Notes under the pieces: generated by a model | Told to the model about the DNA's origin: nothing | Database searches by the model: none | Seen by the model: the letters and a program-made list of their open reading frames with translations, nothing else | Shown: positions 1 through 37,599 of the stretch, piece by piece | Layout: each line of letters starts with the position of its first letter | Position numbering within the stretch: the stretch's first letter is position 1 | Made by a program: the position numbers and the translations under genes | Source of the DNA: Planosporangium thailandense | Lineage (GTDB): Bacteria > Actinomycetota > Actinomycetes > Mycobacteriales > Micromonosporaceae | DNA: 64,000 nt | Direction: 5' to 3' | Assembly (NCBI RefSeq): GCF_011947195.1 | Contig: NZ_JAATVY010000004.1 | Coordinates: 1-64,000 of the forward strand

Positions 1-189
1 CGGTCGGCCGGTACAGGGGAGTGCGAAGGCGGCCGGTACTTCTGGTGTTCCGACCTGGTGATCGTGCCCGCGCCTGGCGTGCAAGCAATGCTCGACGCTG
101 TCGAAGAGTTGGTCCGGTCGGGTGAGATCGATGTCGTGTGCAGTGAGGTTGTCGGCCCGACCGATGATGCGGCGGGGCTGAGTGACTAG
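1..189 (+). CDS. hypothetical protein, C-terminal part (gene begins before the window)
   Basis: The frame is open from base 1 to a TAG at 187-189 and encodes 62 residues. It is clearly paralogous to the C-terminal half of the protein at 5568-5936: both contain GGRYFWCSDLVIVP and then GVQAMLDAV with a near-identical tail. I do not recognise a named family. The small acidic fold and the presence of two diverged copies in an accessory region would fit an immunity-type or island cargo protein, but that is only a guess. The start codon lies outside the window, so length and completeness are unknown. Confidence 0.7.
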   Translation, partial: RSAGTGECEGGRYFWCSDLVIVPAPGVQAMLDAVEELVRSGEIDVVCSEVVGPTDDAAGLSD

Positions 190-368
190 CTGGGTGACAA
201 CGGGGAAGGACGCCGGTGGACACCCACGGACGTCAACGGACCGTTCGAGCAGCTCAGCGGGTAAGGAAGCGCAGTTCAACGAGCGTTGATCGTTGCTTGG
301 GGGTCAAGGAGTCGTCGGTTGCGTGTCGCCCCGACCGGCCGAGGGTGAGTTCCGAGCATGGTGAAGGT
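190..368. repeat. degenerate intergenic repeat, partner at 5391-5560
   Basis: The 180 bases after the stop of the first gene resemble those after the stop of the gene ending at 5390. Both begin CTGGGTGAC-ACGGGGA, continue with a diverged GGACG-CGG stretch, and share a GATCGTTGC-GGGTC-AGG-GTCGTTGG block further on. The genes upstream of the two copies differ, so the intergenic tail has been duplicated or recombined independently. No gene is seen in it. Confidence 0.5.
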
Positions 369-1043
369 CTACGGGCCATGCTTCCTCCAGACCAGGGAGT
401 AGCGCCACAACAGATGCCGGCGGTAGCGGACACCGGGGAGTTGGCGGCGGGCGACCCGTCGCATCTGGCCGAAGGTCACTGGCGGCGGCCAGACCATGGG
501 CGACGGATGTTGCCAGTGGGTCTTGCCGAGGCGGTAGGCACGGGACGCGATGGTGGCCGCCAGGTCGAGGGGCAGGCTCGCTGGTAGTTGCCCGCGTGCC
601 AGTCCGATGATGGCGAGCGTGCCGCCGGGGCGAAGCAGCATCGCCATCCGGTTCAATGCGGTGGTGGCGTCCATGTGGTGCAGCGTGGCTACCGCGGTGA
701 CGAGGTCGAAGGCGTTGGGCTCAAAGTCATGGGTGAGGACATCGCCGAGGAGGTAGGTGATCCGGCCGTTCGGATCCTGCTTGCGGGCGTGGTCGATGCT
801 GGTCCGGTCGAGGTCGATACCGGTTACGTGCGGGACGAGTTCGCGCAGCTGACGGGTCAGGGTGCCTTCGCCGCAGCCGACATCGAGTGCTTGTTGGCAC
901 CCATCCGGGACAGCCTGAAGGATCACCGGGTGATAGTGGATGTTGTGGTTCCAGCGCGAACGCTGGCCGACTTGGTCATCGATGGCGGGAACGTCAGCTG
1001 CGCCGTCGCCCGGTTGACGCCTCGCGGCCTCCATGGCGCACAT
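369..1043 (-). CDS. class I SAM-dependent methyltransferase
   Basis: The product is 224 residues. It has the motif I glycine-rich loop DVGCGEGTL (about residues 55-63), the acidic GIDLD ribose-binding segment (about 75-79), and LLGDV and LRPGGTL segments typical of Rossmann-fold methyltransferases of the UbiE/Methyltransf_11 type. The C-terminal 60 residues are basic and aromatic (FGQMRRVARRQLPGVRYRRH), as in many small-molecule methyltransferases. The substrate cannot be predicted. The start is ATG at 1043; a second in-frame ATG lies three codons later, and neither has a strong ribosome-binding site. It stands alone, with no operon partner. Confidence 0.85.
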   Translation of the reverse strand: MCAMEAARRQPGDGAADVPAIDDQVGQRSRWNHNIHYHPVILQAVPDGCQQALDVGCGEGTLTRQLRELVPHVTGIDLDRTSIDHARKQDPNGRITYLLGDVLTHDFEPNAFDLVTAVATLHHMDATTALNRMAMLLRPGGTLAIIGLARGQLPASLPLDLAATIASRAYRLGKTHWQHPSPMVWPPPVTFGQMRRVARRQLPGVRYRRHLLWRYSLVWRKHGP

Positions 1044-1450
1044 AGCCGAATCGTGTCAGAGGTGCGCAAGGACCGCGAGAATCGGTGACGCGGCCCGTGC
1101 CGATGGGGAGGCCGACTTCGAGATCGAGTCCTGGCGGCGGTACAGCTGAGAAGTACAGCAACCGTGCCGGCCGAAGGTGGCTGGAGTCGGACCGAAGACG
1201 GCGGCTCACCTCGTGTACGACCGTAGTTGGCCTTACTGCCGATATTTGGCACGGAAGGGGTCACTGGCGGGGTGCCGGGGGCGAGGTGTACGGACTTCGC
1301 GTCGCACAAATTGATCTTCGAGTACTGAAGGCCGCGCCTGTCCGTGCCGGCGGTGGCCAGGTCACCACGGCACCGCCAGAGGCCAGGCGCGGTGGGCTCA
1401 GTCGTTGTCGGGTAGCGGTCGAGGCGCGGGTCCAGCGACGGCCAGTCGGA
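1044..1450. other. intergenic region without a convincing gene
   Basis: No frame here has the character of a protein gene. It holds one copy (1140-1164) of a paired repeat: GTACAGC followed 13 bases later by GTACAGCAACCG, also found at 4658-4682. The stretch around 1235-1268 faintly resembles 10425-10470, which also lies on the flank of the second GYD-domain gene. This suggests that the two GYD loci share duplicated surroundings. Confidence 0.5.
1140..1164. repeat. GTACAGC tandem pair, copy 1
   Basis: GTACAGC occurs twice with a 13-base period and the second unit ends in AACCG. The same arrangement is at 4658-4682. It differs from the TGTAGCA pairs next to the tRNA fragments but has a similar layout, so it may be another protein-binding arm of an integrated element. 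Function is inferred only from layout. Confidence 0.4.
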
Positions 1451-1771
1451 TCAGGCGCCGGGCGCGCGGTAGTCGACGGTCTGCTTCACCGCTTGGTCGA
1501 CTTCTGCCGGGGTCAGCAGCACCACCGTCTTGGTGGTGGCTCCACCGGCTGCGCCTACTGCGAAAGCGACGGCGGCGGCGGCTTTGTTGTCGGGCAGTTC
1601 GCAAATCAGATACACGTCGGGCTCGCCGAATCCGAAGTCGAACGACTCAAGTCGCCCGCCGACACTCTCGGCCGCCTTCCGGACCGCCTCGACTCGCCCG
1701 CTGCCCCCGTCCTTGCGCAGTCCGCGGAGTCCGTCGAGCGTGTAGGTCGACTGGATGAGGAATCTTGGCAT
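1451..1771 (-). CDS. GYD domain-containing protein (copy 1)
   Basis: The product is 106 residues and starts MPRFLIQSTYTLDGLRGL, the usual beginning of the GYD family of small ferredoxin-like-fold proteins. The later GEPDVYLICELPDNKAAAAV segment is also typical. ATG at 1771 is chosen over an upstream GTG because GGAGGGGG lies a suitable distance before it. The length equals that of its paralogue at 9893-10213, with which it shares most residues. The family has no settled biochemical function. The gene is monocistronic, and the two copies about 8 kb apart sit in the same orientation inside the repeat-rich part of the window. Confidence 0.85.
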   Translation of the reverse strand: MPRFLIQSTYTLDGLRGLRKDGGSGRVEAVRKAAESVGGRLESFDFGFGEPDVYLICELPDNKAAAAVAFAVGAAGGATTKTVVLLTPAEVDQAVKQTVDYRAPGA

Positions 1772-2112
1772 CGCGATCACCCCCTCCAGCCGAGCGTAGC
1801 CGCCGGAGGCATTCCGGCCGAAACGTCCAAGCTGTGACAGACCCGCACCATTTGAGATTCCGACGACGGGGAAGGGGTCTTATGGCGCCGGCCGAGAGGC
1901 GTGAAGAGTCGAGCGCTGAGGGGCGGGACCGTCGACCCGACCTGCGGGCAGCGGGCCGACTCCGGGTCGCCACGAAGCGCGAGAACGGCCGGCCGGCGTG
2001 TAGCACCGGCTGTAGCAACGGCAGTGGACGATCACGGATCCGCGCGGTCGGCACGGGGCGTTGTTCCGACTCCACGGACGGAAAGCGCGGCCACAGCGAC
2101 AGTTGCCCGGAA

Positions 2113-2156
2113 CTTACAAGCGGGGGTCGCTGGTTCGAACCCAGCCGCGCCCACCA
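2113..2156 (+). other. tRNA 3'-half fragment, putative attachment site 1
   Basis: The sequence runs from a CTTACAA anticodon loop through a GCGGG stem half, a GGTC variable region, a GCTGG-TTCGAAC-CCAGC T-arm, and a CGCGCCC acceptor strand, then A and CCA. It reads as the 3' half of a tRNA with anticodon TAC (valine). The bases just before the loop (CCGGAA) cannot form the matching CCCGC anticodon-stem strand, so it is not a whole tRNA. Such 3' identity segments are left by tyrosine recombinases that use tRNA genes. A TGTAGCA pair with a 12-base period lies at 1999-2020, and an integrase remnant lies at 2212-2335. Confidence 0.75.
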
Positions 2157-2211
2157 GGTAGTACTCTCCGGATCGTGGCCCCGGCCAGGGGCCTGACATC
2201 CAGTTCTGACA

Positions 2212-2335
2212 TCAGCCGGCCCCGCCGAACGCCTCGCCGAGGGACCGCAGCGCCTTCGTCTGCTCCTCCATGGCCGAGCGCGTAGATCGTCATGGTGACA
2301 TTAATGTGGCTGTGGCCGGCGATCGCATGGCGATG
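2212..2335 (-). pseudogene. tyrosine recombinase (integrase) C-terminal remnant
   Basis: Read on the minus strand, this stretch encodes AGHSHINVTMTIYA. This matches the conserved GHSsixxTmxxY box of phage-type integrases, including the terminal catalytic Tyr. After a frameshift the next frame continues MEEQTKALRSLGEAFGG to a TGA at 2212-2214, which is a normal integrase tail. Nothing recognisable of the Arg and HxxR regions remains upstream, so only about 40 codons survive. The dead gene ends 56 bases from putative attachment site 1, which is where an integrase gene normally sits. Confidence 0.65.
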
Positions 2336-2345
2336 TGCGGGGGAC

Positions 2346-2386
2346 GGCCCGGCATTGCGCAGCACAGGCGACGGGATGACTCCTCG
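2346..2386. repeat. 41-bp dispersed repeat, copy A
   Basis: It is identical to 17422-17462 except for three transitions, in the same orientation, and contains the block CACAGGCGACGGGA. Copy A lies directly upstream (in coding sense) of the integrase remnant. Copy B lies in a gene-poor stretch 15 kb away. This suggests that both are relics of related mobile elements. Confidence 0.6.
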
Positions 2387-2438
2387 ACGGGGCGCTTGAG
2401 CGGTACCACATCTACCGGCGTGCGCAGCTAACAGCGGA

Positions 2439-3299
2439 TCAGATGAGGAAGAGTCCCCTGGTGATCGTCGCGGTACCGCCGACCAGGACCACTGAGCCTG
2501 CAAGGCCGGAACGGGTGTTGGCAGCGATGGTGGCAGGTTCGCCGAGCGAGTCGCCCATGTCGACGTCCAGCGTCGAGAAACCGCGGTCGGCGAGATGTGC
2601 GGCCAGGCAGGCGGTGCTGTTGGCGTTGGCAATGTCTTCGGGGACACCGATCGAGGGGGCGAACATACGGGCCGCTGCGCGTCCATCTGGTGACGGTGTG
2701 CTGTAGACGTAGCAGCCCAGCAATCCCGACCGGTCGCAAGCCTCCCGTAAGCGGAGCATGTTGGGCGTCAGATCCGCCAGGATCCCACGATCAGAGACTT
2801 GCACCAGCATCCGGGGCCGTCCCACTGAAGCGATGTGGCACCGTGCCGACGCCTCCCCAGCATCAATGTTCAATGCGGATAGGACGGGTTCGCGCTCTGC
2901 CGTGGTGGGGGCGCGTAGTTCGACGGGCCCGGGATCGAAAACAGCGTTGTATCCGCCATCACGGGCGGTGGCCTCGCCGAGGAAGGTCCGGCCACCAGAC
3001 CGCAGAACAGCCTTGTACTCCCGCATCCGGGCACGTGCGGCGAGCACCGCTAGCGCGGCCACAGTGCCGTGTCCGCAGGCGGGCAACTCTCCGGTGGCGG
3101 TGAAGAAACGCAGCGACACGGTCGGACGGTCGGGCCCGTGTTCCTCGGTCGAGATAAACACGACATGCGATGTGCCGGCCGCGACCGGCACTGCACGACG
3201 CTCGGCATCGCTCAAAGCCGTCTCATCGACCACTGCAGTTGGACTCCCGCCTCGCCCAGCGCGCTGGCAGGCGTGGACGATCGTAACGTGGAGACTCAT
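2439..3299 (-). CDS. PhzF family protein, catalytic Glu not conserved
   Basis: The product is 286 residues, a normal length for the PhzF/DapF-like isomerase family. The family signatures are CGHGTVAAL (about residues 75-83) and the C-terminal segment ARMFAPSIGVPEDIANANST. The family's catalytic Glu normally lies in a SET-aF box near residue 45. Here the box reads GTSHVVF, so residue 45 is His, and normal isomerase chemistry is doubtful. It may be a binding protein or act differently. The start is ATG at 3299 and the gene is monocistronic. Small tRNA-fragment sites lie on both sides (2113 and 3454), so it may be cargo of one former element. Confidence 0.8.
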   Translation of the reverse strand: MSLHVTIVHACQRAGRGGSPTAVVDETALSDAERRAVPVAAGTSHVVFISTEEHGPDRPTVSLRFFTATGELPACGHGTVAALAVLAARARMREYKAVLRSGGRTFLGEATARDGGYNAVFDPGPVELRAPTTAEREPVLSALNIDAGEASARCHIASVGRPRMLVQVSDRGILADLTPNMLRLREACDRSGLLGCYVYSTPSPDGRAAARMFAPSIGVPEDIANANSTACLAAHLADRGFSTLDVDMGDSLGEPATIAANTRSGLAGSVVLVGGTATITRGLFLI

Positions 3300-3453
3300 G
3301 AATACGGGAGGCTAGCAACAAGAGAGCGGATTTAGCTGACATCTACGGCTGACATCAACCGTGGCGGTTGATCGCGGACCAGCCTGGACTGATGGAGCCG
3401 TCAGCTTGGACGTGAGGGATCTCGGCGGACGCTGCGGATCACGTCAGAAGAGC

Positions 3454-3497
3454 CTTACAAGCGGGGGTCGCTGGTTCGAACTCAGCCGCGCCCACCA
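3454..3497 (+). other. tRNA 3'-half fragment, putative attachment site 2
   Basis: It is the same 44-base segment as site 1, with one C-to-T change in the T-stem (CTCAGC instead of CCCAGC), and it ends in CCA. The upstream flank differs from the other copies (AGAAGAGC). The TGTAGCA pair lies downstream at 3546-3566, whereas at sites 1, 3 and 4 it lies about 110 bases upstream. Site 2 may therefore be the opposite end type of an element. Confidence 0.7.
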
Positions 3498-4043
3498 CGG
3501 TTCAGCAGGTCTTTCACTCCGGGGAAGACCGCAACGGAGATCATCTGTAGCAGCGCCTGTAGCAATGGCAGCTCAGTCGAGGTGGTCGTCAAGGCTGCCC
3601 TGCCGGGCCGCGCAAGCTCCGCCGCTTGGGCGTCGTGATCGCCCGGCCGACGGCTGGCCGGGAGATCACGCCAACGCCCAGCGGCACGTCGCAGACAGCA
3701 GACAGCAAGCGGGCCGCCGACGTACGACAGCGCCGAGGGCACCTGATCGGGGCGGGCCGGCCCGACGGCGAGCTGGGCGCGCGGCGGGCAGCCACGCCGC
3801 GCCGTAGCGCGGGTCATGGTCCGCAGTGGGCGGGTGGTCGGCGTGGGCGTCCCACGGTGCCTGATCGTCCACGCCACCTGCCCGGCCTCCAGGACGCGTC
3901 GCGTCGGCTGCGCCGATGGCCTGCGGCCACCCTGGACCCCGGCCGGGCGTCGAGGATCTTGGCACCTATCCGGGGGACGGGGAGCAGTGCGGCGAGCAGG
4001 ACGGCGCCTGCTCGTGTCGTAAGGTGCCCGGCATGCGTCGCCT
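3498..4043. other. intergenic region, no gene seen
   Basis: Only a TGTAGCA pair (3546-3566) and GC-rich sequence with no protein-like frame were found. Short open frames on both strands are dominated by Arg/Ala/Pro and look like chance frames of high-GC DNA. Confidence 0.5.
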
Positions 4044-4445
4044 CTACTTCGGGTCCAACTGGCGCAGCCGGCGGATGGAGTCATGCCTGGCAAGTCGGGT
4101 GAGAATAGCGGTAGTTGCGTCCGGGATATCTACTTTCAGAGACTTGACTGCTGATCTCCCAATCTTCCAGCCAGCGAACATGAGGATCCATGCTGGTACC
4201 AAGCTGGCGTGGTTGAGGAAAGTCGGGTTCTGGTTGGTCGTCATCATGCGGACGCCGCCGATCGCGACTGCCAATAATCCGACGGCAAACCCGGCGAGCG
4301 ACAGCCGCTCACCTCGCACGAGGGACGGATAGCAACGGTGCCCGCGAATCCGTTCCGACAAATCGTGGTCGGCTGTCGCCACGGCTCCTCCGATGCCGCA
4401 GATAATTCCCGCCGAGCTGGTGGCGCCCCGACGGCGTCCCGGCAA
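4044..4445 (-). CDS. small two-helix membrane protein, unknown function
   Basis: The open frame gives up to 133 residues. Two hydrophobic segments are seen, LSLAGFAVGLLAVAIGGV (about 49-66) and SLVPAWILMFAGW (about 81-93), followed by a basic cytoplasmic-type tail rich in Arg and Lys. No family is recognised. The start is uncertain: in-frame GTG codons at about residues 22 and 43 are possible and would leave the two helices intact. The gene lies between gene-poor stretches in the accessory region, with no operon partner. Confidence 0.5.
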   Translation of the reverse strand: MPGRRRGATSSAGIICGIGGAVATADHDLSERIRGHRCYPSLVRGERLSLAGFAVGLLAVAIGGVRMMTTNQNPTFLNHASLVPAWILMFAGWKIGRSAVKSLKVDIPDATTAILTRLARHDSIRRLRQLDPK

Positions 4446-5042
4446 CGCATGTCACCAGAACGATGATCTTAATAGCACCTTCGCCCGGCTGTAGCCAGAG
4501 CGAAGGTCCGCCGCGGCCAACCGGGCAGCCAAGTCGCTGGACGACGGTGGACATCAGCGAAGTCCGTTAGGCGTCGACGACGATTACGACCACGCAGGTC
4601 CAGAAACCGCTGCCGACACATGACGCCCACACCGAGGAGTCGTCTGAAGCGCAGCCCGTACAGCAGCGAAGTACAGCAACCGACGGCACCGCACGAGACC
4701 ATGAGGAACCGCAACAGCCCGTCTGGCCTCCGACGGGACCTCATGGGACCAGATTGCCCGTAGCTCACACCGACTTGTGTGATGGGTGGCAGGAGATCAG
4801 GGTCTGCAGCCAGGATCTTCGAGGTGGTGGCCGGGGTCGCTCGGTTCACACCTGCCGAAGCGATCAGTTGCTCGGGGTGACAGCAACGCTGGCTGTAACC
4901 GAGGTGGTCAACCTCGGTCGGCGCAGTCCTGATCGGGCGGTTCGCCGCACCTCGGGGCCGGCATCGGGCGTACGAGTCCGTCGGGCGCGGGGACGCTGAA
5001 AGTATCCAGAAGGGCTGTCGTGGGTCCGCGTAGCCTGACACC
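4446..5042. other. intergenic region with one GTACAGC pair, no gene seen
   Basis: About 600 bases without a supported gene. It contains the GTACAGC pair at 4658-4682, matching 1140-1164. A 194-codon minus-strand frame is open but has no domain-like features and an atypical composition, so I do not call it. Confidence 0.45.
4658..4682. repeat. GTACAGC tandem pair, copy 2
   Basis: GTACAGC and GTACAGCAACCG are spaced 13 bases apart, matching 1140-1164 with only a few differences in the spacer. The context is a gene-poor region between integration relics. Confidence 0.4.
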
Positions 5043-5390
5043 GTGCTGATCAAGTTGATGGGCGATTACAGCTGCTGGCCCTTGTGGATTCGCGACGAAG
5101 ACGACGGGGTCTTCTACCCGCGTGATCCTGCCACGCTCGGGCTGGGCGCCAGCCTCATCGGACGGTTGGCGGCGTGGCAGCAATGGCACGAATCCATGGT
5201 CAACGTCGCCGACCCTAACGACAGCAGGCCTGTCACCGAGGCCGAGTGGGAAGCCTTCGCCAACGAGGGCCGCCTACTGGCGGCGCGGGTCGCTGAAGAG
5301 CTTCCTCACGCAACTGCCTGGTTTTACCAGGATCCCCAGCCGCATTCTGAAGTAGACGCCCTCAGGCGACGTCGAGCGGTGGGTGACTAA
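5043..5390 (+). CDS. conserved actinobacterial hypothetical protein
   Basis: The product is 115 residues and begins MLIKLMGDYSCWPLWI from a GTG at 5043. The N-terminus and the later WEAFANEGRLLAARVAEELP segment resemble a widespread actinobacterial family of unknown function. No membrane helix, signal peptide or metal site is seen. The last dozen residues (ALRRRRAVGD) are atypical and read into the sequence shared with the repeat after the first gene of the window, so the C-terminus may be a recombination joint. No operon partner is close. Confidence 0.7.
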   Translation: MLIKLMGDYSCWPLWIRDEDDGVFYPRDPATLGLGASLIGRLAAWQQWHESMVNVADPNDSRPVTEAEWEAFANEGRLLAARVAEELPHATAWFYQDPQPHSEVDALRRRRAVGD

Positions 5391-5567
5391 CTGGGTGACG
5401 ACGGGGACGGACATCGGCGGACGGCCACGGACCTTGGTGGACCTTTGTCGCAGGTCGAGCTGCAGGGAGCCGCAGGCCTAGCGACCGTGATCGTTGCCTC
5501 GGGTCCAGGGGTCGTTGGCCGCGGTCATCGCAGCGCCTGACTACGGTCGTCGTGCCATCATCGCCTC

Positions 5568-5936
5568 GTGAGTAACGACTCCAGGTGGACGCATGAGTTG
5601 GATGGCGCGACGGTCCAGTTCATGCCGGGGAAAGACAATGACCCGGAAACTGTGGAGAACACCGACGCGCACATCTATCTCCGCGACAGCACGCACCGGT
5701 ACGCCACGTTCATGACCACGAACGAGATCGCTCGCGTTCTTCAACGGTGGGCCGATACGGGGGAGGGTGGAGGTGGTCGGTACTTCTGGTGTTCCGACCT
5801 GGTGATCGTTCCGAGGCCGGGGGTGCAAGCGATGCTTGACGCTGTCCAGGAGCTGGTTCGCTCGGGCGAGATCGCCGTTACATGCAGCGAGGTTATGGGT
5901 ACGGGAGATGACGCAGCGCACGCCAGCAAGCCGTGA
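5568..5936 (+). CDS. hypothetical protein, full-length paralogue of the gene at 1-189
   Basis: The product is 122 residues from a GTG at 5568 (MSNDSRWTHELDGATVQF). It is soluble and acidic, with a central THRYATFMTTNEIARVLQRW and a conserved GGRYFWCSDLVIVP block. The second half matches the truncated gene at the window start. No named domain is recognised. The two copies are about 5.6 kb apart, on the same strand, and differ enough to be old duplicates or separate acquisitions. The next feature downstream is attachment site 3. Confidence 0.65.
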   Translation: MSNDSRWTHELDGATVQFMPGKDNDPETVENTDAHIYLRDSTHRYATFMTTNEIARVLQRWADTGEGGGGRYFWCSDLVIVPRPGVQAMLDAVQELVRSGEIAVTCSEVMGTGDDAAHASKP

Positions 5937-6078
5937 TCGTTGCCTAGGCATCAGGGCCCGCACCTGTAGCAGCGCCTGTAGCAACGACGGCGGACCGCCA
6001 CAGAAAGCGGTGGACCGGCTAAGCGATCGGCGCGAACCCACGGACATGCGCAGTGCCGACGAGGACAGGTGCCCGGAA

Positions 6079-6119
6079 CTTACAAGCGGGGGTCGCTGGT
6101 TCGAACCCAGCCGCGCCCA
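6079..6119 (+). other. tRNA 3'-half fragment, putative attachment site 3
   Basis: It has the same anticodon-loop to acceptor sequence as site 1 but ends CGCGCCCA without CCA (TACC follows). A TGTAGCA pair with a 12-base period lies at 5965-5986, about 110 bases upstream, as at sites 1 and 4. It forms the left end of the 283-bp direct repeat. Confidence 0.75.
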
Positions 6120-6265
6120 TACCTGATGGCCTGGGTATCTCCCCGGGTCATCGTTTGTTTTCCGCGATCTTTGCCATCGTCTGTCGTTGACCTCCGACGC
6201 CCCGGTTGACCGTGGTTCGCCGGAGGATGTCGCACGCGGAGCGCACGGACGACGCGGTGAGCGGG

Positions 6266-6352
6266 TCAGTTCCCGTCTCGGAGCCGCGATCGCGCTTGGT
6301 TGACCAGCTCCTGGTGCTCGGGGGAGAGCGGCTCGACGAGCGCCCGTTCGAG
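6266..6352 (-). pseudogene. truncated 3' end of a small conserved gene (intact copy at 8641-8880)
   Basis: On the minus strand the frame encodes LERALVEPLSPEHQELVNQA and then the RSRLRDGN tail, identical to the C-terminus of the protein at 8641-8880. Upstream of 6352 the similarity stops within the codon run, so about 50 N-terminal residues are missing. It is a gene fragment left by the repeat-forming event. Confidence 0.75.
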
Positions 6353-6621
6353 CCACAAGGGAACTGGGTGTAGTGGTGCTCGGTCGTGTTCCGCGCGGCC
6401 CGGGCCGGCGCGCCGCAGCGGAAGGCGAGAGGCGCGCCGTGCCCTGGCCGTGACGGTCGTAGCTGGCCACAGTAGGCGGAGATGGTCGCCGAGCGGGCGA
6501 CGACGACGGGGCGGATTGAAGAAATTGATAGCGATGTGTGACTGGTCGACTCTGGCCCCGGTTCGGTGGCCTGCCGGCGTTATGGGTGGGCGGCCCGTCG
6601 AGGCACGGCTAATGTGCGACC

Positions 6622-7041
6622 ATGGGGCCCGACGTGCCGAAGGTGATCAAGCTTGTTGCCAAGTCTGATCTTGTTGCGCTGAGCGAGAAGGCGCGTGCGC
6701 TGCATCTGGGCGTTGGTCGGCGTGCCGATTGGTTGACTGAGTATGTTGCAGAATCCTCGAACGGAGCGCTCTGGGCGATCCTTCAAGAAAGCCATCCACA
6801 GCGGTGTTACCGGTGCCAGATCGTGATCAGGCGCAGCGGCGACGGGATCGAGAACTTCCTGCTCGATGTGCTGCCCGACGACTTCGAGCAACTGCCAAAT
6901 CTGCCTGAGGAACGCTTGGTGCAGCTCACTCGATGGGCGTTGAGCCACGTTCCAGTTAGCCCGCTACCGGCCGAGTACCTGGCGGAGTGGGACAGGGCCG
7001 CGCCCGGATGTGCGACCGTCGAGAAGTCGAAGTCGCGCTAA
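6622..7041 (+). CDS. hypothetical protein
   Basis: The product is 139 residues, starting MGPDVPKVIKLVAKSDLVAL from ATG at 6622. It contains a YRCQIVIRRSGDGIENFLLDVLPDDFEQL segment (shown only in part here as RCQIVIRR), mixed alpha/beta in character and soluble. No named family is recognised. It is the first gene inside the 2.4-kb segment bounded by the 283-bp direct repeats, together with two VOC or glyoxalase-type genes and two gene relics, so it may be element cargo. No ribosome-binding site is obvious. Confidence 0.6.
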   Translation: MGPDVPKVIKLVAKSDLVALSEKARALHLGVGRRADWLTEYVAESSNGALWAILQESHPQRCYRCQIVIRRSGDGIENFLLDVLPDDFEQLPNLPEERLVQLTRWALSHVPVSPLPAEYLAEWDRAAPGCATVEKSKSR

Positions 7042-7062
7042 ACCGGGGAACGAAAGCTCCTT

Positions 7063-7200
7063 GAGGGCCTGCCCCACCCGGACGATTTGGATGGTCACTT
7101 CATGGTCGATCCTCGAAGTTCGGCTTCTACGCTACGGACTGCTACCGCCTGCTCGGTGAGAACAACCTGGCCGAGATGTACGCCCACGAGATCATGAGAG
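7063..7200 (+). pseudogene. frameshifted remnant of an XRE-type regulator C-terminus
   Basis: One frame reads GLPHPDDLDGHFMVDP and, after a one-base shift, the next reads KFGFYATDCYRLLGENNLAE then MYAHEIMR. These two blocks are adjacent in the C-terminal part of many actinobacterial helix-turn-helix regulators with TPR-like repeats. The rest of the gene is absent. The relic abuts the start of the VOC gene at 7213, so a deletion probably joined them. Confidence 0.55.
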
Positions 7201-7212
7201 TAGGTTTCGTCA

Positions 7213-7593
7213 ATGGCATGTCGTATCAGTGAGCTCGTGCTCGGTTGCCGCGACCCCGAGGTGCTGGCGCGGTTCTGGTGCGAGGTCCTGGACTTCGTAG
7301 TGCTCGATCGCGAAGCGGACGGCAGTCTCGAGATCGGGCCGCGCGAAGGGTTCGGTGGCCCGCAGCCGACGATCATCCTCAGCCGCAGGGACAAGCCGGA
7401 GCAGGGGAAGCCCCGGCTGCACATCGACGTCAACGCCACCGACCGCGATCAGGACGCCGAGCTCGAACGCCTCCTGAAGCTCGGGGCGCGCCCGGCCGAC
7501 ATCGGTCAGACCGGCGAGGAGCCCTGGCACGTTCTTGCCGACCCCGAGGGCAATGAGTTCTGCCTGCTCAAGGCCCGCCTCAACCCGCTCTGA
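7213..7593 (+). CDS. VOC family protein (glyoxalase-like)
   Basis: The product is 126 residues. It has the vicinal-oxygen-chelate fold pattern: ISELVLGCRDPEVLARFW at the start (first beta-alpha unit), RLHIDVNATD in the middle, and a DPEGNEFCLL end. The last block, with Asn-Glu-Phe-Cys, is characteristic of the Glyoxalase_6 subgroup common in actinobacteria, which includes many enzymes of unknown substrate and some resistance-type binding proteins. It starts at ATG 7213. The neighbours are a regulator relic upstream and an HD-domain relic downstream. Confidence 0.85.
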   Translation: MACRISELVLGCRDPEVLARFWCEVLDFVVLDREADGSLEIGPREGFGGPQPTIILSRRDKPEQGKPRLHIDVNATDRDQDAELERLLKLGARPADIGQTGEEPWHVLADPEGNEFCLLKARLNPL

Positions 7594-7618
7594 CGGCTCT
7601 GTGTCCCCCGGTGCGGCC

Positions 7619-7855
7619 CTAGTCGAAGGTCCTGCCGAACGCGTGCGCCCGATTCAGTACGCGATCGATCGCGGCTCGGATCTCGTTCGAAGCGGCGGTG
7701 ATCGCCCGAGAGACGTTGTGGTCTTGGCCGTAACGTTCCCGGATCTCGACTAGGCGTGCGTCGAAGGTCACCGGCAGGCCAACTGGGCTGGTGGTCATGT
7801 CGCAGTACCAGACACCATTGCGGGCAAGCGAGTCTTCATCGGGGAACTCGGAGCC
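7619..7855 (-). pseudogene. HD-domain phosphohydrolase, C-terminal fragment
   Basis: On the minus strand the frame encodes FPDEDSLARNGVWYCDMTT, then PVTFDARLVEIRERYG and VSRAITAASNEIRAAI, ending in TAG at 7619-7621. The YCDMTT and ERYG blocks are typical of the C-terminal region of actinobacterial HD (metal-dependent phosphohydrolase) proteins. A TGA lies in frame immediately upstream at 7856-7858 and the catalytic HD region is missing. It is a decayed gene between two VOC genes. Confidence 0.55.
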
Positions 7856-7904
7856 TCAGCCCGCGTGCGATCATCACGCATACTCGTTCAGGCGGGAGGA
7901 CCGT

Positions 7905-8258
7905 ATGCGCGTCACACGCATCATCGCCGACCTTCGGGTGGCGGACGTCGAGGCGGCGAAGAGCTTCTACACCCACTACCTCGGCCTGAGCACGGAGGAG
8001 TTCAACATGGGCTGGGTGGCGCGCTACACCTCCCCGGATACCGGTGCGAATGTCCAGCTCGTGACGCGCGATGCTGCGGCTCCCGAGGATCCGGTCATCT
8101 CCGTGCTCACGGAGGACGTGGACGGTGCCTATGCAGAGGCGCAGGAACTCGGCTACGAGATCGTGCACCCGCTGACCACGGAGCCATGGGGTGTGCGTCG
8201 GTTCTTCGTCCGCGCGCCGGACGGCACCGTGATCAACGTCGTGCGCCACCGCGACTGA
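7905..8258 (+). CDS. VOC family protein
   Basis: The product is 117 residues. ATG at 7905 is preferred because GGGAGGA lies six bases upstream; an upstream in-frame start would add 38 residues unlike the family. The sequence shows two beta-alpha-beta units: MRVTRIIADLRVADVEAAKS with FYTHYLGL, and the later DGAYAEAQELGYEIVHPLT with RRFFVRAPDGTVINVV. This is a typical antibiotic-biosynthesis or bleomycin-resistance-like VOC protein. The substrate is unknown. It is in the segment between the 283-bp direct repeats. Confidence 0.85.
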   Translation: MRVTRIIADLRVADVEAAKSFYTHYLGLSTEEFNMGWVARYTSPDTGANVQLVTRDAAAPEDPVISVLTEDVDGAYAEAQELGYEIVHPLTTEPWGVRRFFVRAPDGTVINVVRHRD

Positions 8259-8444
8259 GATAGCGCCGCGGCGTGCGGTCAGGGGCGGGGCGGCCACGGT
8301 TGGCTAGCGTGACCAGCCGGTGCCGTCGACCCGCCAGCGTGTAGCGGCGGCTGTAGCGACGGCAGTGGACGATCACGGATCCACATGGGCGGCACGGGCC
8401 GTTGTAGCGAGCCCATGAACGGAGAGTGGGGCCGCAGGGACAGT

Positions 8445-8727
8445 TGTCCGGAACTTGCAAGCGGGGGTCGCTGGTTCGAACCCAGCCGCGCCCACACCTG
8501 ATGGCCTGGGTATCTCCCCAGGTCATCGTTTGTATTCCGCGATCTTTGCCATCATCTGTCGTTGACCTCCGACGCCCCGGTTGACCGTGGTTCGCCGGAG
8601 GATGTCGCACGCGGAGCGCACGGACGACGCGGTGAGCGGATCAGTTCCCGTCTCGGAGCCGCGATCGCGCTTGGTTGACCAGCTCCTGGTGCTCGGGGGA
8701 GAGCGGCTCGACGAGCGCCCGTTCGAG
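8445..8727. repeat. 283-bp direct repeat, right copy
   Basis: It pairs with 6070-6352. It contains tRNA fragment 4 and the spacer beginning ACCTGATGGCCTGGGTATCT, and runs into the intact small gene at 8641-8880. Its left flank (8339-8444) also resembles the left flank of site 1 (1998-2112), which the left copy of this repeat does not share as closely. Confidence 0.85.
8454..8494 (+). other. tRNA 3'-half fragment, putative attachment site 4
   Basis: It is the same segment with one change in the anticodon loop (CTTGCAA instead of CTTACAA), a complete T-arm and acceptor strand, and no CCA. The TGTAGCG pair at 8340-8358 keeps the 12-base period. The altered loop shows that this copy is free of selection as a tRNA. 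Confidence 0.75.
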
Positions 8728-8880
8728 AAGGCAAGTGAGGTTCCACAGCGCTCGCTGCTCGGCCTGGTCCACGACCAGGTCGCCGAAGTCGTTGGTCGCC
8801 TCGTCGGTGCGGGACAACCATTCGAACAGAACCAGCGCCTCGTCGCGGCTGAGCCTGACTACGAGCTCGTCTTGATCCAC
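8641..8880 (-). CDS. small conserved actinobacterial protein
   Basis: The product is 79 residues from a GTG at 8880: MDQDELVVRLSRDEALVLFE, then a helical acidic remainder (LVVDQAEQRALWNLTCLLER) and the RSRLRDGN end. It matches a common family of small actinobacterial proteins of unknown function, often near regulators or toxin-like genes. No membrane or metal-binding feature is seen. The C-terminal third is duplicated as a fragment at 6266-6352. Confidence 0.7.
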   Translation of the reverse strand: MDQDELVVRLSRDEALVLFEWLSRTDEATNDFGDLVVDQAEQRALWNLTCLLERALVEPLSPEHQELVNQARSRLRDGN

Positions 8881-9861: not shown

Positions 9862-9892
9862 TCGGCCGGGTCAGCGACTGACCATCGCAGGA

Positions 9893-10213
9893 TCAAGCAC
9901 CGGGTGCGCGGTAGTCGACGCGCTGCTGGACGGCCTGGTCGACCTCTGCCGGGGTCAGCAAGGCCACGGTCTTGGTGGTGACTCCGCCGGATGCGCCGAT
10001 CGCGAGAGCGACGGCGGCGGCGGCTTTGTTGTCGGGCAGTTCGCAGATCACGTACGTGTCGGGCTCGCCGAACGCGAAGTCGTATGACTCAAGACGCCCG
10101 CCGACGCTTTCGGCCATCCGCCGGAGCGCCTCGACGCGCCCGCTGCCCCCGTCCTTGAGCAGCCCGCGGAGTCCGTCGAGCGTGAACGTACCCTGGATGA
10201 GGAATCTTGGCAT
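9893..10213 (-). CDS. GYD domain-containing protein (copy 2)
   Basis: The product is 106 residues, MPRFLIQGTFTLDGLRGL at the start and VDYRAPGA at the end, the same length as copy 1 at 1451-1771. ATG at 10213 has a near-perfect AAGGAGGTGAT upstream, which settles the start. The central GEPDTYVICELPDNKAAAAV block is conserved. The fold is ferredoxin-like and no reaction is established for the family. Two copies in one accessory stretch suggest duplication of a segment or repeated acquisition. Confidence 0.88.
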   Translation of the reverse strand: MPRFLIQGTFTLDGLRGLLKDGGSGRVEALRRMAESVGGRLESYDFAFGEPDTYVICELPDNKAAAAVALAIGASGGVTTKTVALLTPAEVDQAVQQRVDYRAPGA

Positions 10214-10465
10214 GGAGATCACCTCCTTCCAATCAAGCGTAGTTGCGGGAGACGTGCCCGACACCATGTCTCGACGTGCGGCAGGATCCCCTCAATGAGG
10301 TGATGTCGACGGCGGGAACGAGTGGTAGTGGCTCACCGTGGCAGCGACAAATCCACTGTCATCCGTAACCGCGGCACTACGACGGGGCCGGGCAGTGGCT
10401 GTACACCACCGAAGCGCAGCGATCTGCCTGCCGGTAATCGACACGGAAGAGGTCGCTGGACCCGG

Positions 10466-37180: not shown

Positions 37181-37599
<419 letters not shown>

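Follow-up and report, generated by a model that had tools for sequence, protein, structure and literature searches.

Cis-mobilizable elements (CIME), which are flanked by attachment (att) sites and are without recombination or transfer genes, are known from Streptococcus thermophilus, where they arise through deletion and tandem accretion. An array of similarly att-flanked units, without genes for recombination or transfer, is found at a tRNA-Val(TAC) gene of Planosporangium thailandense (Micromonosporaceae; genome G000) and extends into the window, the 64,000 nt stretch analysed here (bases 1–64000 of contig C49). Serial accretion of actinomycete integrative and conjugative elements (AICE) at this tRNA, followed by their decay, is a known process and very probably explains the four tRNA fragments found in the window.

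In Streptomyces, AICE and defective AICE are located in tandem at one tRNA with direct repeats; remnants there consist of a partial integrase and cargo genes between the repeats, and the target genes listed include one for tRNA-Val (PMC9513070). Tandem AICE have also been described as Fean5518/Fean5534 at a tRNA-Lys of Frankia and as Sav3708/Sav3728 at a tRNA-Arg, the integrases behind the tandem insertion being either close relatives or different; Fean6303 has one att copy more, and excision was shown for the Frankia elements (PMC3218068). The complete 13.6-kb AICE pACPL of Actinoplanes sp. SE50/110 targets a tRNA-Pro and has been likened to pSAM2 (PMC3364876). The array has in common with the Streptomyces remnants its tandem att-flanked units at one tRNA, and with the Fean and Sav pairs the tandem insertion at one tRNA. 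Unlike the former, all of its units are decayed, with four fragments within 6.4 kb, and the right ends in its interior include half-cores from five other tRNAs, which were not met in the extracts of PMC9513070. The Frankia elements excise, whereas no intact integrase was found in the array.

The 3' halves of tRNA-Val(TAC) are present in one orientation at 2113–2156, 3454–3497, 6079–6122 and 8454–8497, as the initial annotation had proposed from the sequence of the window, and have 93–98% identity to the first copy over 44 nt. In local alignments with the 3' half of this genome's tRNA-Val(TAC), copies 1 to 4 score 82, 77, 76 and 73. When the array was shuffled 30 times with dinucleotides preserved, none of 47 tRNA halves scored above a null maximum of 32. 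The four fragments are far above chance. The tRNA-Val(CAC) and tRNA-Val(GAC) genes were rejected as their source, these halves scoring 33–39 at the same places. ARAGORN calls no tRNA in the window, and the fragments are therefore without a 5' half, as had also been claimed. Each spans from the anticodon loop (CTTACAA; CTTGCAA in copy 4) to CGCCCA or further. One variable-loop G of the intact gene is absent from all four, and fragments in two other genomes (G272 and G162) are likewise one G short. If the missing G is derived from attP, the exchange point falls to the right of that G run; alternatively, slippage may have removed it once function was lost.

The intact gene, which had been expected upstream of the window, is on a neighbouring contig (G000:C104:4938–5012, minus strand). 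The end of C104 and the first bases of the window share 8 bases, CGGTCGGC; a gene homologous to window 5568–5936 spans the join; and the congener G002 has the upstream DNA, the tRNA, its flank and DNA matching window 26.6–28 kb on a single contig and in the same order. Because of the shared bases, the gene across the join and this synteny, C104 probably reads into C49, which would place the intact tRNA just left of the window. Between the intact gene and copy 1 there is then a unit of about 7 kb that was beyond the view of the initial annotation, and the insert from the tRNA to copy 4 is about 13.4 kb.

Comparison with related strains, suggested at the outset as a check, identified the empty site in three congeners (G001, G002 and G003). 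In these, a flank that includes a terminator-like inverted repeat comes immediately after the tRNA; the part of it aligned past the tRNA measures 31 nt in G001, 93 nt in G003 and about 130 nt in G002. In P. thailandense, the flank follows copy 4 (8454) and, in truncated form, copy 3. Since the ancestral chromosomal flank continues behind it, copy 4 is the distal junction. The conserved core begins about 31.6 kb from the tRNA in this genome, compared with 2.2 kb in G002. The full CCA is not encoded by the tRNA gene in the three congeners, whereas the intact gene here encodes it and continues into element DNA; the intact gene is therefore a hybrid, rebuilt by an element.

Integrase is represented at the array by C-terminal tails alone, at the intact tRNA, at 2113 and at 3454; relatives have longer open frames at the same tRNA. 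The DNA at the intact tRNA and at copy 3454 is alike (94% over 145 nt), including the start of one tail (integrase A), and behind copy 2113 there are pieces of a second one (integrase B). Matches to the 60-aa integrase-A tail at E 1e-12 are present in 47 of 300 family genomes, this one included. Among 30 loci fetched, including the remnant described here, 12 are beside tRNA-Val(TAC), one is beside a fragment of it, 16 are beside tRNA-Thr(TGT) and one has no tRNA found. The tail is 61–77 nt from tRNA-Val(TAC), or 144 nt at L106, where the frame breaks early. A 29-aa piece of integrase B is matched at 69% in G079 (L037 = L060) and at 62% in L127, both beside tRNA-Val(TAC). Pieces like integrase B are also beside this tRNA at L289, L292 and L293 and beside tRNA-Thr(TGT) at L290 and L291; three of the seven loci (L289, L291 and L293) have the exact CTGACATC pair that is found in unit 2.

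What a complete element at this site can look like is illustrated by G036, with a 12.5-kb AICE between tRNA-Val(TAC) and a fragment of this tRNA, which encodes Int, RepSA (E 1.2e-143), an FtsK-type protein and DUF2637. In the array, Pfam searches of 13 open reading frames (ORFs), a set without the join-crossing gene and ORF 7619–7798, identified neither a RepSA-type or other replication initiator nor an FtsK/SpoIIIE-type transfer protein. As in AICE of the pSAM2 type, the att sites are direct repeats at the 3' end of a tRNA. The absence of recombination and transfer genes between them is that of a CIME or defective AICE, and the integrase tails point to derivation from integrative and conjugative elements. 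Since no second match to the integrase-A tail was found in the genome at E 1e-12, the array can probably not move without a helper.

In the relatives, the gap between the integrase stop codon and the tRNA contains a short direct-repeat pair, 12–13 nt apart; 26 of the 30 gaps have a repeat of at least 7 nt, the exceptions being L096, L101, L103 and L104. Pairs of this arm type are found throughout the array. A scan with four motifs identified 15 pairs in the 13.4 kb, all on the tRNA strand, and none in 70,535 flanking bases, the mean of 200 shuffles being 0.06 and their maximum 1. Seven of the 15 are where four elements predict them, so that these putative integrase sites, which in AICE are on both sides, are at both ends of units 1, 2 and 3 and at the right end only of unit 4. 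The other eight are inside units 1 and 3 and belong to other element types. A slightly different scan of 884 kb of the genome gave 24 rows, 15 in the array (one pair being listed twice and that at 8340 missed) and 9 elsewhere. In an unbiased scan for repeats with a 13-nt period the enrichment was uneven, one part of the array having 0.20 per kb and the other 0.59, versus 0.07–0.16 outside, and a 12-nt period showed no enrichment; the named-motif scan is stronger than the unbiased scan but is partly circular.

The arm at 5383 contains GTGACTAACTGGGTGAC, the reverse complement of GTCACCCAGTTAGTCAC, which corresponds to nt 1–17 in one version of the 21-nt repeats of pACPL (PMC3364876). The array is like pACPL in this arm repeat and in the tRNA-Pro-type core behind it, and differs in having only right ends of that type, the other GTGAC arms differing from the published repeat by at least one base. 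The GTACAGCA arm pattern has 53 matches in 23 of 71 family genomes and none for a reversed control. Short elements with GTACAGCA arms at both ends were seen at a tRNA-Lys(TTT) (L230, G000:C27:391231–393900, arms 2.5 kb apart) and at a tRNA-Arg(ACG) (L231, G000:C27:519279–524200, 4.7 kb apart). At L228 (G066:C31, 7754–11700), a tRNA-Pro(CGG) has one P' arm and three right-hand arms spaced by 730–970 nt, with a tRNA-Pro fragment behind the last of them. That the GTGAC and TACAGCA blocks might themselves be a new kind of attC was an idea that was dropped: a GTGAC pair matches published arm sites, and the TACAGCA pair occurs beside other tRNAs and leads into tRNA fragments.

Each type of right-hand arm precedes a tRNA 3' half at a near-constant distance: 114 nt for TGTAGCA, 118 nt for CTGACATC, 106 nt for GTACAGCA and 114–120 nt for GTGAC, with arm repeats 114–118 nt ahead of every tRNA-Val(TAC) fragment. 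In gapped alignments, the four tRNA-Val(TAC) sites match from position 1 to 42–45 of the half, whereas the interior cores stop early (at 17–24), near the tRNA variable loop. These alignments show that the interior cores are truncated. Ungapped identity of the left and right parts is alone no proof of truncation, because the missing G gives even the complete tRNA-Val(TAC) fragments values of 0.82 and 0.29–0.32. The Val(GAC)-like stretch at C104:1350 (offset 115, 0.82 over 17 nt) and the core at window position 4658 are not significant in a free test; the cores of the other six interior arms were reached or exceeded by 0 to 1% of 300 control pieces.

Half-cores are also found elsewhere. Among 42 candidate right ends, taken from loci picked by earlier matches and several of them from one genus, there are 11 full cores, 13 half-cores and 18 without an assigned core. 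The assigned half-cores end at positions 17–23 of the tRNA half, with one at 35, and four more recognised by eye among the 18 (L219, L376, L377 and L238) end at 19–28. The core offset is 99, 106 or 111 nt in the 24 assigned ends. The cognate tRNA is upstream of 5 of 5 full-core arms, 6–17 kb away, and of 0 of 10 half-core arms (Fisher p 0.0003), in loci chosen with the class partly known and with a lower full-core cut-off than in the set of 42, which moved the G047 site (L379 = L412, matching to position 35) from half to full; with this site counted as half, the comparison becomes 4 of 4 versus 1 of 11 (p 0.004). These 15 are from 20 left stretches read, the rest being three unclear cases (one with the cognate tRNA), L407 with no arm by pattern and L409 with no left flank. 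In G057 and G004, the next integrase tail is close behind the full core, which marks another insertion at that site. Integrase strand exchange with non-tRNA DNA is the simplest origin of the half-core ends; no description of such ends was found in the open-licence PubMed Central literature.

The array can be accounted for if elements with at least two integrase families, A with TGTAGCA arms and B with CTGACATC arms, inserted serially into the tRNA or into earlier fragments. At each insertion the tRNA or fragment was rebuilt proximally and a 3' fragment left distally, as the anatomy and the empty site show. Integrase, replication and transfer genes would then have been lost, giving units of 1.3 to 7 kb that are bounded by att sites and have one gene or several. 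Loss of these genes is evident in the remnants, and the order of events may have been as given. Units 1 and 3 contain further right ends of related elements, with cores of Pro(GGG), Pro(CGG), Val(CAC), Val(GAC) and Lys(CTT). As their cut near the variable loop suggests, these interior ends may have been joined to non-tRNA DNA by integrases through strand exchange at that place.

The tRNA gene, the empty sites and the integrase tails thus bear out the earlier proposal that several elements integrated serially at one tRNA and then decayed. The segment with the PhzF-like gene (2113–3453) has matching arm repeats near both ends (2193 and 3336) and so seems to be a single discrete element, in which PhzF is the sole recognised gene. 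The cargo is split more finely than the three units proposed, and several of the internal boundaries mark where elements of a different tRNA specificity end.

Several observations weigh against accretion and decay as set out here. Simple tandem accretion or insertion does not account for the duplicated flank that follows copy 3, and relatives of integrase A are commoner at tRNA-Thr(TGT) than at tRNA-Val(TAC) in the survey of 30 loci. The arm motifs were first seen in the array, so that the count of 15 against 0 is partly circular; the repeats in the gaps of relatives and the published pACPL repeats are support independent of it. The linkage of C104 and C49 depends on the 8 bases, the join-spanning gene and synteny, and the core at C104:1350, that at 4658 and the integrase tails are too worn for firm assignment. 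In addition, a RepSA search of the genome was empty, which proves little as none of 14 control genomes matched either.

The interior half-cores could be attR ends of whole AICE that had inserted at secondary sites in non-tRNA DNA and had later lost all that was to the left of the last gene. This is a serious contender, given somewhat less than an even chance. Secondary insertion sites are known for tyrosine integrases, and the narrow range of positions at which the half-cores end is what a strand-exchange point would give. However, six of ten half-core arms with a left flank have no tblastn match there to four probes (two Int, RepSA and FtsK), the other four (L395, L396, L398 and L406) have matches only beside other tRNAs, and no left partner end, consisting of the right half-core and a P' arm, has been identified.

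The genes between the arms raise another question. Of 14 inter-arm intervals in the array, nine have one gene, three have none and two have more than one, with a gene list of the author's own choice. Four of the nine single genes run opposite to the arms. The stop codon is −7 to 94 nt from the arm for the seven plus-strand genes that adjoin one. The module with a PALP gene (G000, C104:2524–1224) is present in G001:C27 with 91% identity over 1301 nt, and there is no tRNA near it within the stretches of G001 read. The homology starts at the first base of the left arm and ends inside the right half-core. Ahead of this module in G001 there is a block of 634–657 nt, consisting of a gene for 119 aa, a GTACAGCA arm and a Val(CAC) half-core. 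Its copies in G001:C27 and G002:C12 are 88.7% identical over 657 aligned nt, with the right edge at the half-core, and at E 1e-5 the compared stretches of 30.4 and 25.3 kb share nothing else, although this is a single case. Its left edge may resemble tRNA-Gly(CCC) over 10–12 nt.

Integron gene cassettes have one gene closely followed by a recombination site and occur in arrays. The modules described here would differ from these in their site, an arm pair and tRNA half-core of a pSAM2-type integrase in place of attC. A gene with its right arm pair and half-core might, in a similar way, be a mobile unit moved by AICE-type integrases at the half-core, which would be compatible with serial accretion and decay and is considered unlikely, though not remote. 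The block shared by two species, the end of the PALP homology, the single-gene intervals with their short stop-to-arm distances and the absence of a cognate tRNA upstream of half-core arms can be counted in its favour and make such mobility suggestive at the level of sequence. Against this, neither a circular form nor a strain-level empty site was seen, the two-species block is one case, and homologous recombination between islands can also yield shared blocks. There is no jump in identity at the left half-core of the PALP module (0.82 in the arm block, 0.81 in the DNA past the half-core), the homology starting at the arm instead, and 18 of 42 candidate arms are without an assigned core. That Micromonosporaceae have an integron-like cassette economy, run by AICE-type tyrosine integrases and collecting genes at tRNA-Val(TAC) and elsewhere, is a speculative idea with perhaps a one-in-four standing, as is the form its unit would take: one gene, an arm-type pair, about 100 nt and a tRNA half from anticodon loop to variable loop, with units linked in chains to each other and also to non-tRNA DNA through strand exchange near the latter.

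That the fragments are chance likenesses, or copied pieces of tRNA without an integration history, can be dismissed: the one point in its favour is that no intact integrase is among the array ORFs scanned, and the shuffle test, the arms at a set distance ahead of the fragments and the empty site in congeners all speak against it.

Table 1. Features of the array at tRNA-Val(TAC). Positions are those of the window unless a contig is given; w, window position; for half-cores, the positions matched in the tRNA half follow the name.
Feature	Location	Strand	Remarks
Unit 1, left part	G000:C104:4937–1		
Half-core Pro(CGG) 1–18	C104:2669		
Half-core Val(CAC) 1–17	C104:2524		
Half-core Lys(CTT) 1–22	C104:483		
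Unit 1, right part	1–2112	+	End of join-crossing gene; methyltransferase 369–1043 (−); GYD-domain 1451–1780 (−)
GTGAC-type arm pair (182) and tRNA-Pro(GGG) core remnant from 297	182–339	+	Right end, other specificity
Half-core Pro(GGG) 2–24	w182		
GTACAGCA arm pair and tRNA-Val(GAC) half-core 1246–1267	1140–1267	+	Offset 106
Half-core Val(GAC) 1–22	w1140		
TGTAGCA arm pair (1999) and tRNA-Val(TAC) fragment 1 (2113–2156)	1999–2156	+	Offset 114; unit 1 right end
Unit 2	2113–3453	+	Fragment 1; CTGACATC arms 2193 and 3336; PhzF-like gene 2439–3299 (−)
Unit 2 integrase-B tail remnant	about 2215–2365	−	Two pieces
tRNA-Val(TAC) fragment 2	3454–3497	+	Alignment, shuffle test
Unit 3	3454–6078	+	Fragment 2; TGTAGCA arm 3546; start of integrase-A tail; ORFs 4044–4445 (−), 5043–5390 and 5568–5936; internal arms 4658 and 5383; right arm 5965
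GTACAGCA arm block	4658–4773	+	Core place is TCACACCGA, Val(CAC)-like; alone not significant
GTGAC-type arm pair and tRNA-Pro(GGG)-like core remnant	5383–5515	+	
Half-core Pro(GGG) 5–22	w5383		
290-nt repeat, fragment 3 and truncated ancestral flank	6063–6352	+	97% to 8438–8727
tRNA-Val(TAC) fragment 3	6079–6122	+	Unit 3 right end
Unit 4 cargo	6353–8326	+	ORF 6622–7041; glyoxalase-like genes 7213–7593 and 7905–8258
TGTAGCA arm pair (8340) and fragment 4 (8454–8497)	8340–8497	+	Two mismatches in arm pair; then ancestral flank

The gene families recognised in the array with Pfam are PALP, HIRAN, methyltransferase, GYD, PhzF and glyoxalase-like, while ORFs 4044, 5043, 5568, 6622 and 8641 and the integrase-B remnant have no Pfam match. 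ORF 8641–8880 is cut in the upstream copy of the 290-nt repeat. A GYD-type gene pair, 83% identical, has one member inside the array (1427–1808) and one past it (9867–10251). A tRNA-Val(GAC)-like half-core is also present past the array at 10440–10459, with a score of 35 compared with the null maximum of 32 in the array, and because of this there may be further remnants up to about 26 kb.

In a survey with an exact fragment pattern, which misses two of the four fragments of the window itself, 245 of 354 genomes were matched, with at most 3 matches each; at least 2 were present in 37 genomes, of which some may be second tRNA genes. Other arrays consist of the tRNA and 3 further cores in G322, where no full-length integrase was seen in the ORF list, no family search having been made, and of the tRNA and 2 further cores in G364. 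At L047 (G046:C60) there are two tRNA-Val(TAC) fragments opposite to the gene, one of them short of a variable-loop G.

A repeated, strongly folding noncoding stretch, starting near TCAAGGCGGCCCG, is present in the window from 3585 to about 4000 and at L303–L317 (G000, G001, G002, G006 and G011). It interrupts the integrase tail in the window and at the tRNA-Lys of L230. Of 21 genomes, 7 match it at E 1e-6, in some cases only partially. The fold z-score of the DNA is −4.1. In eight aligned copies, 8 of 50 predicted pairs are changed on both sides, with a slightly unfavourable covariation term (+0.62), and Rfam gave it no name at E up to 1. The window also contains an RNase P RNA of bacterial class A at 37189–37595.

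With its tRNA, four further att copies and the empty sites of congeners, the array is a compact case of an actinomycete keeping single metabolic genes from dead elements. The half-core rule, an arm pair followed at a near-fixed offset by half a tRNA, can be used to seek orphan AICE ends in any genome. If the single-gene modules are mobile, they would represent a second, integron-like form of gene capture by integrases in an actinomycete family.

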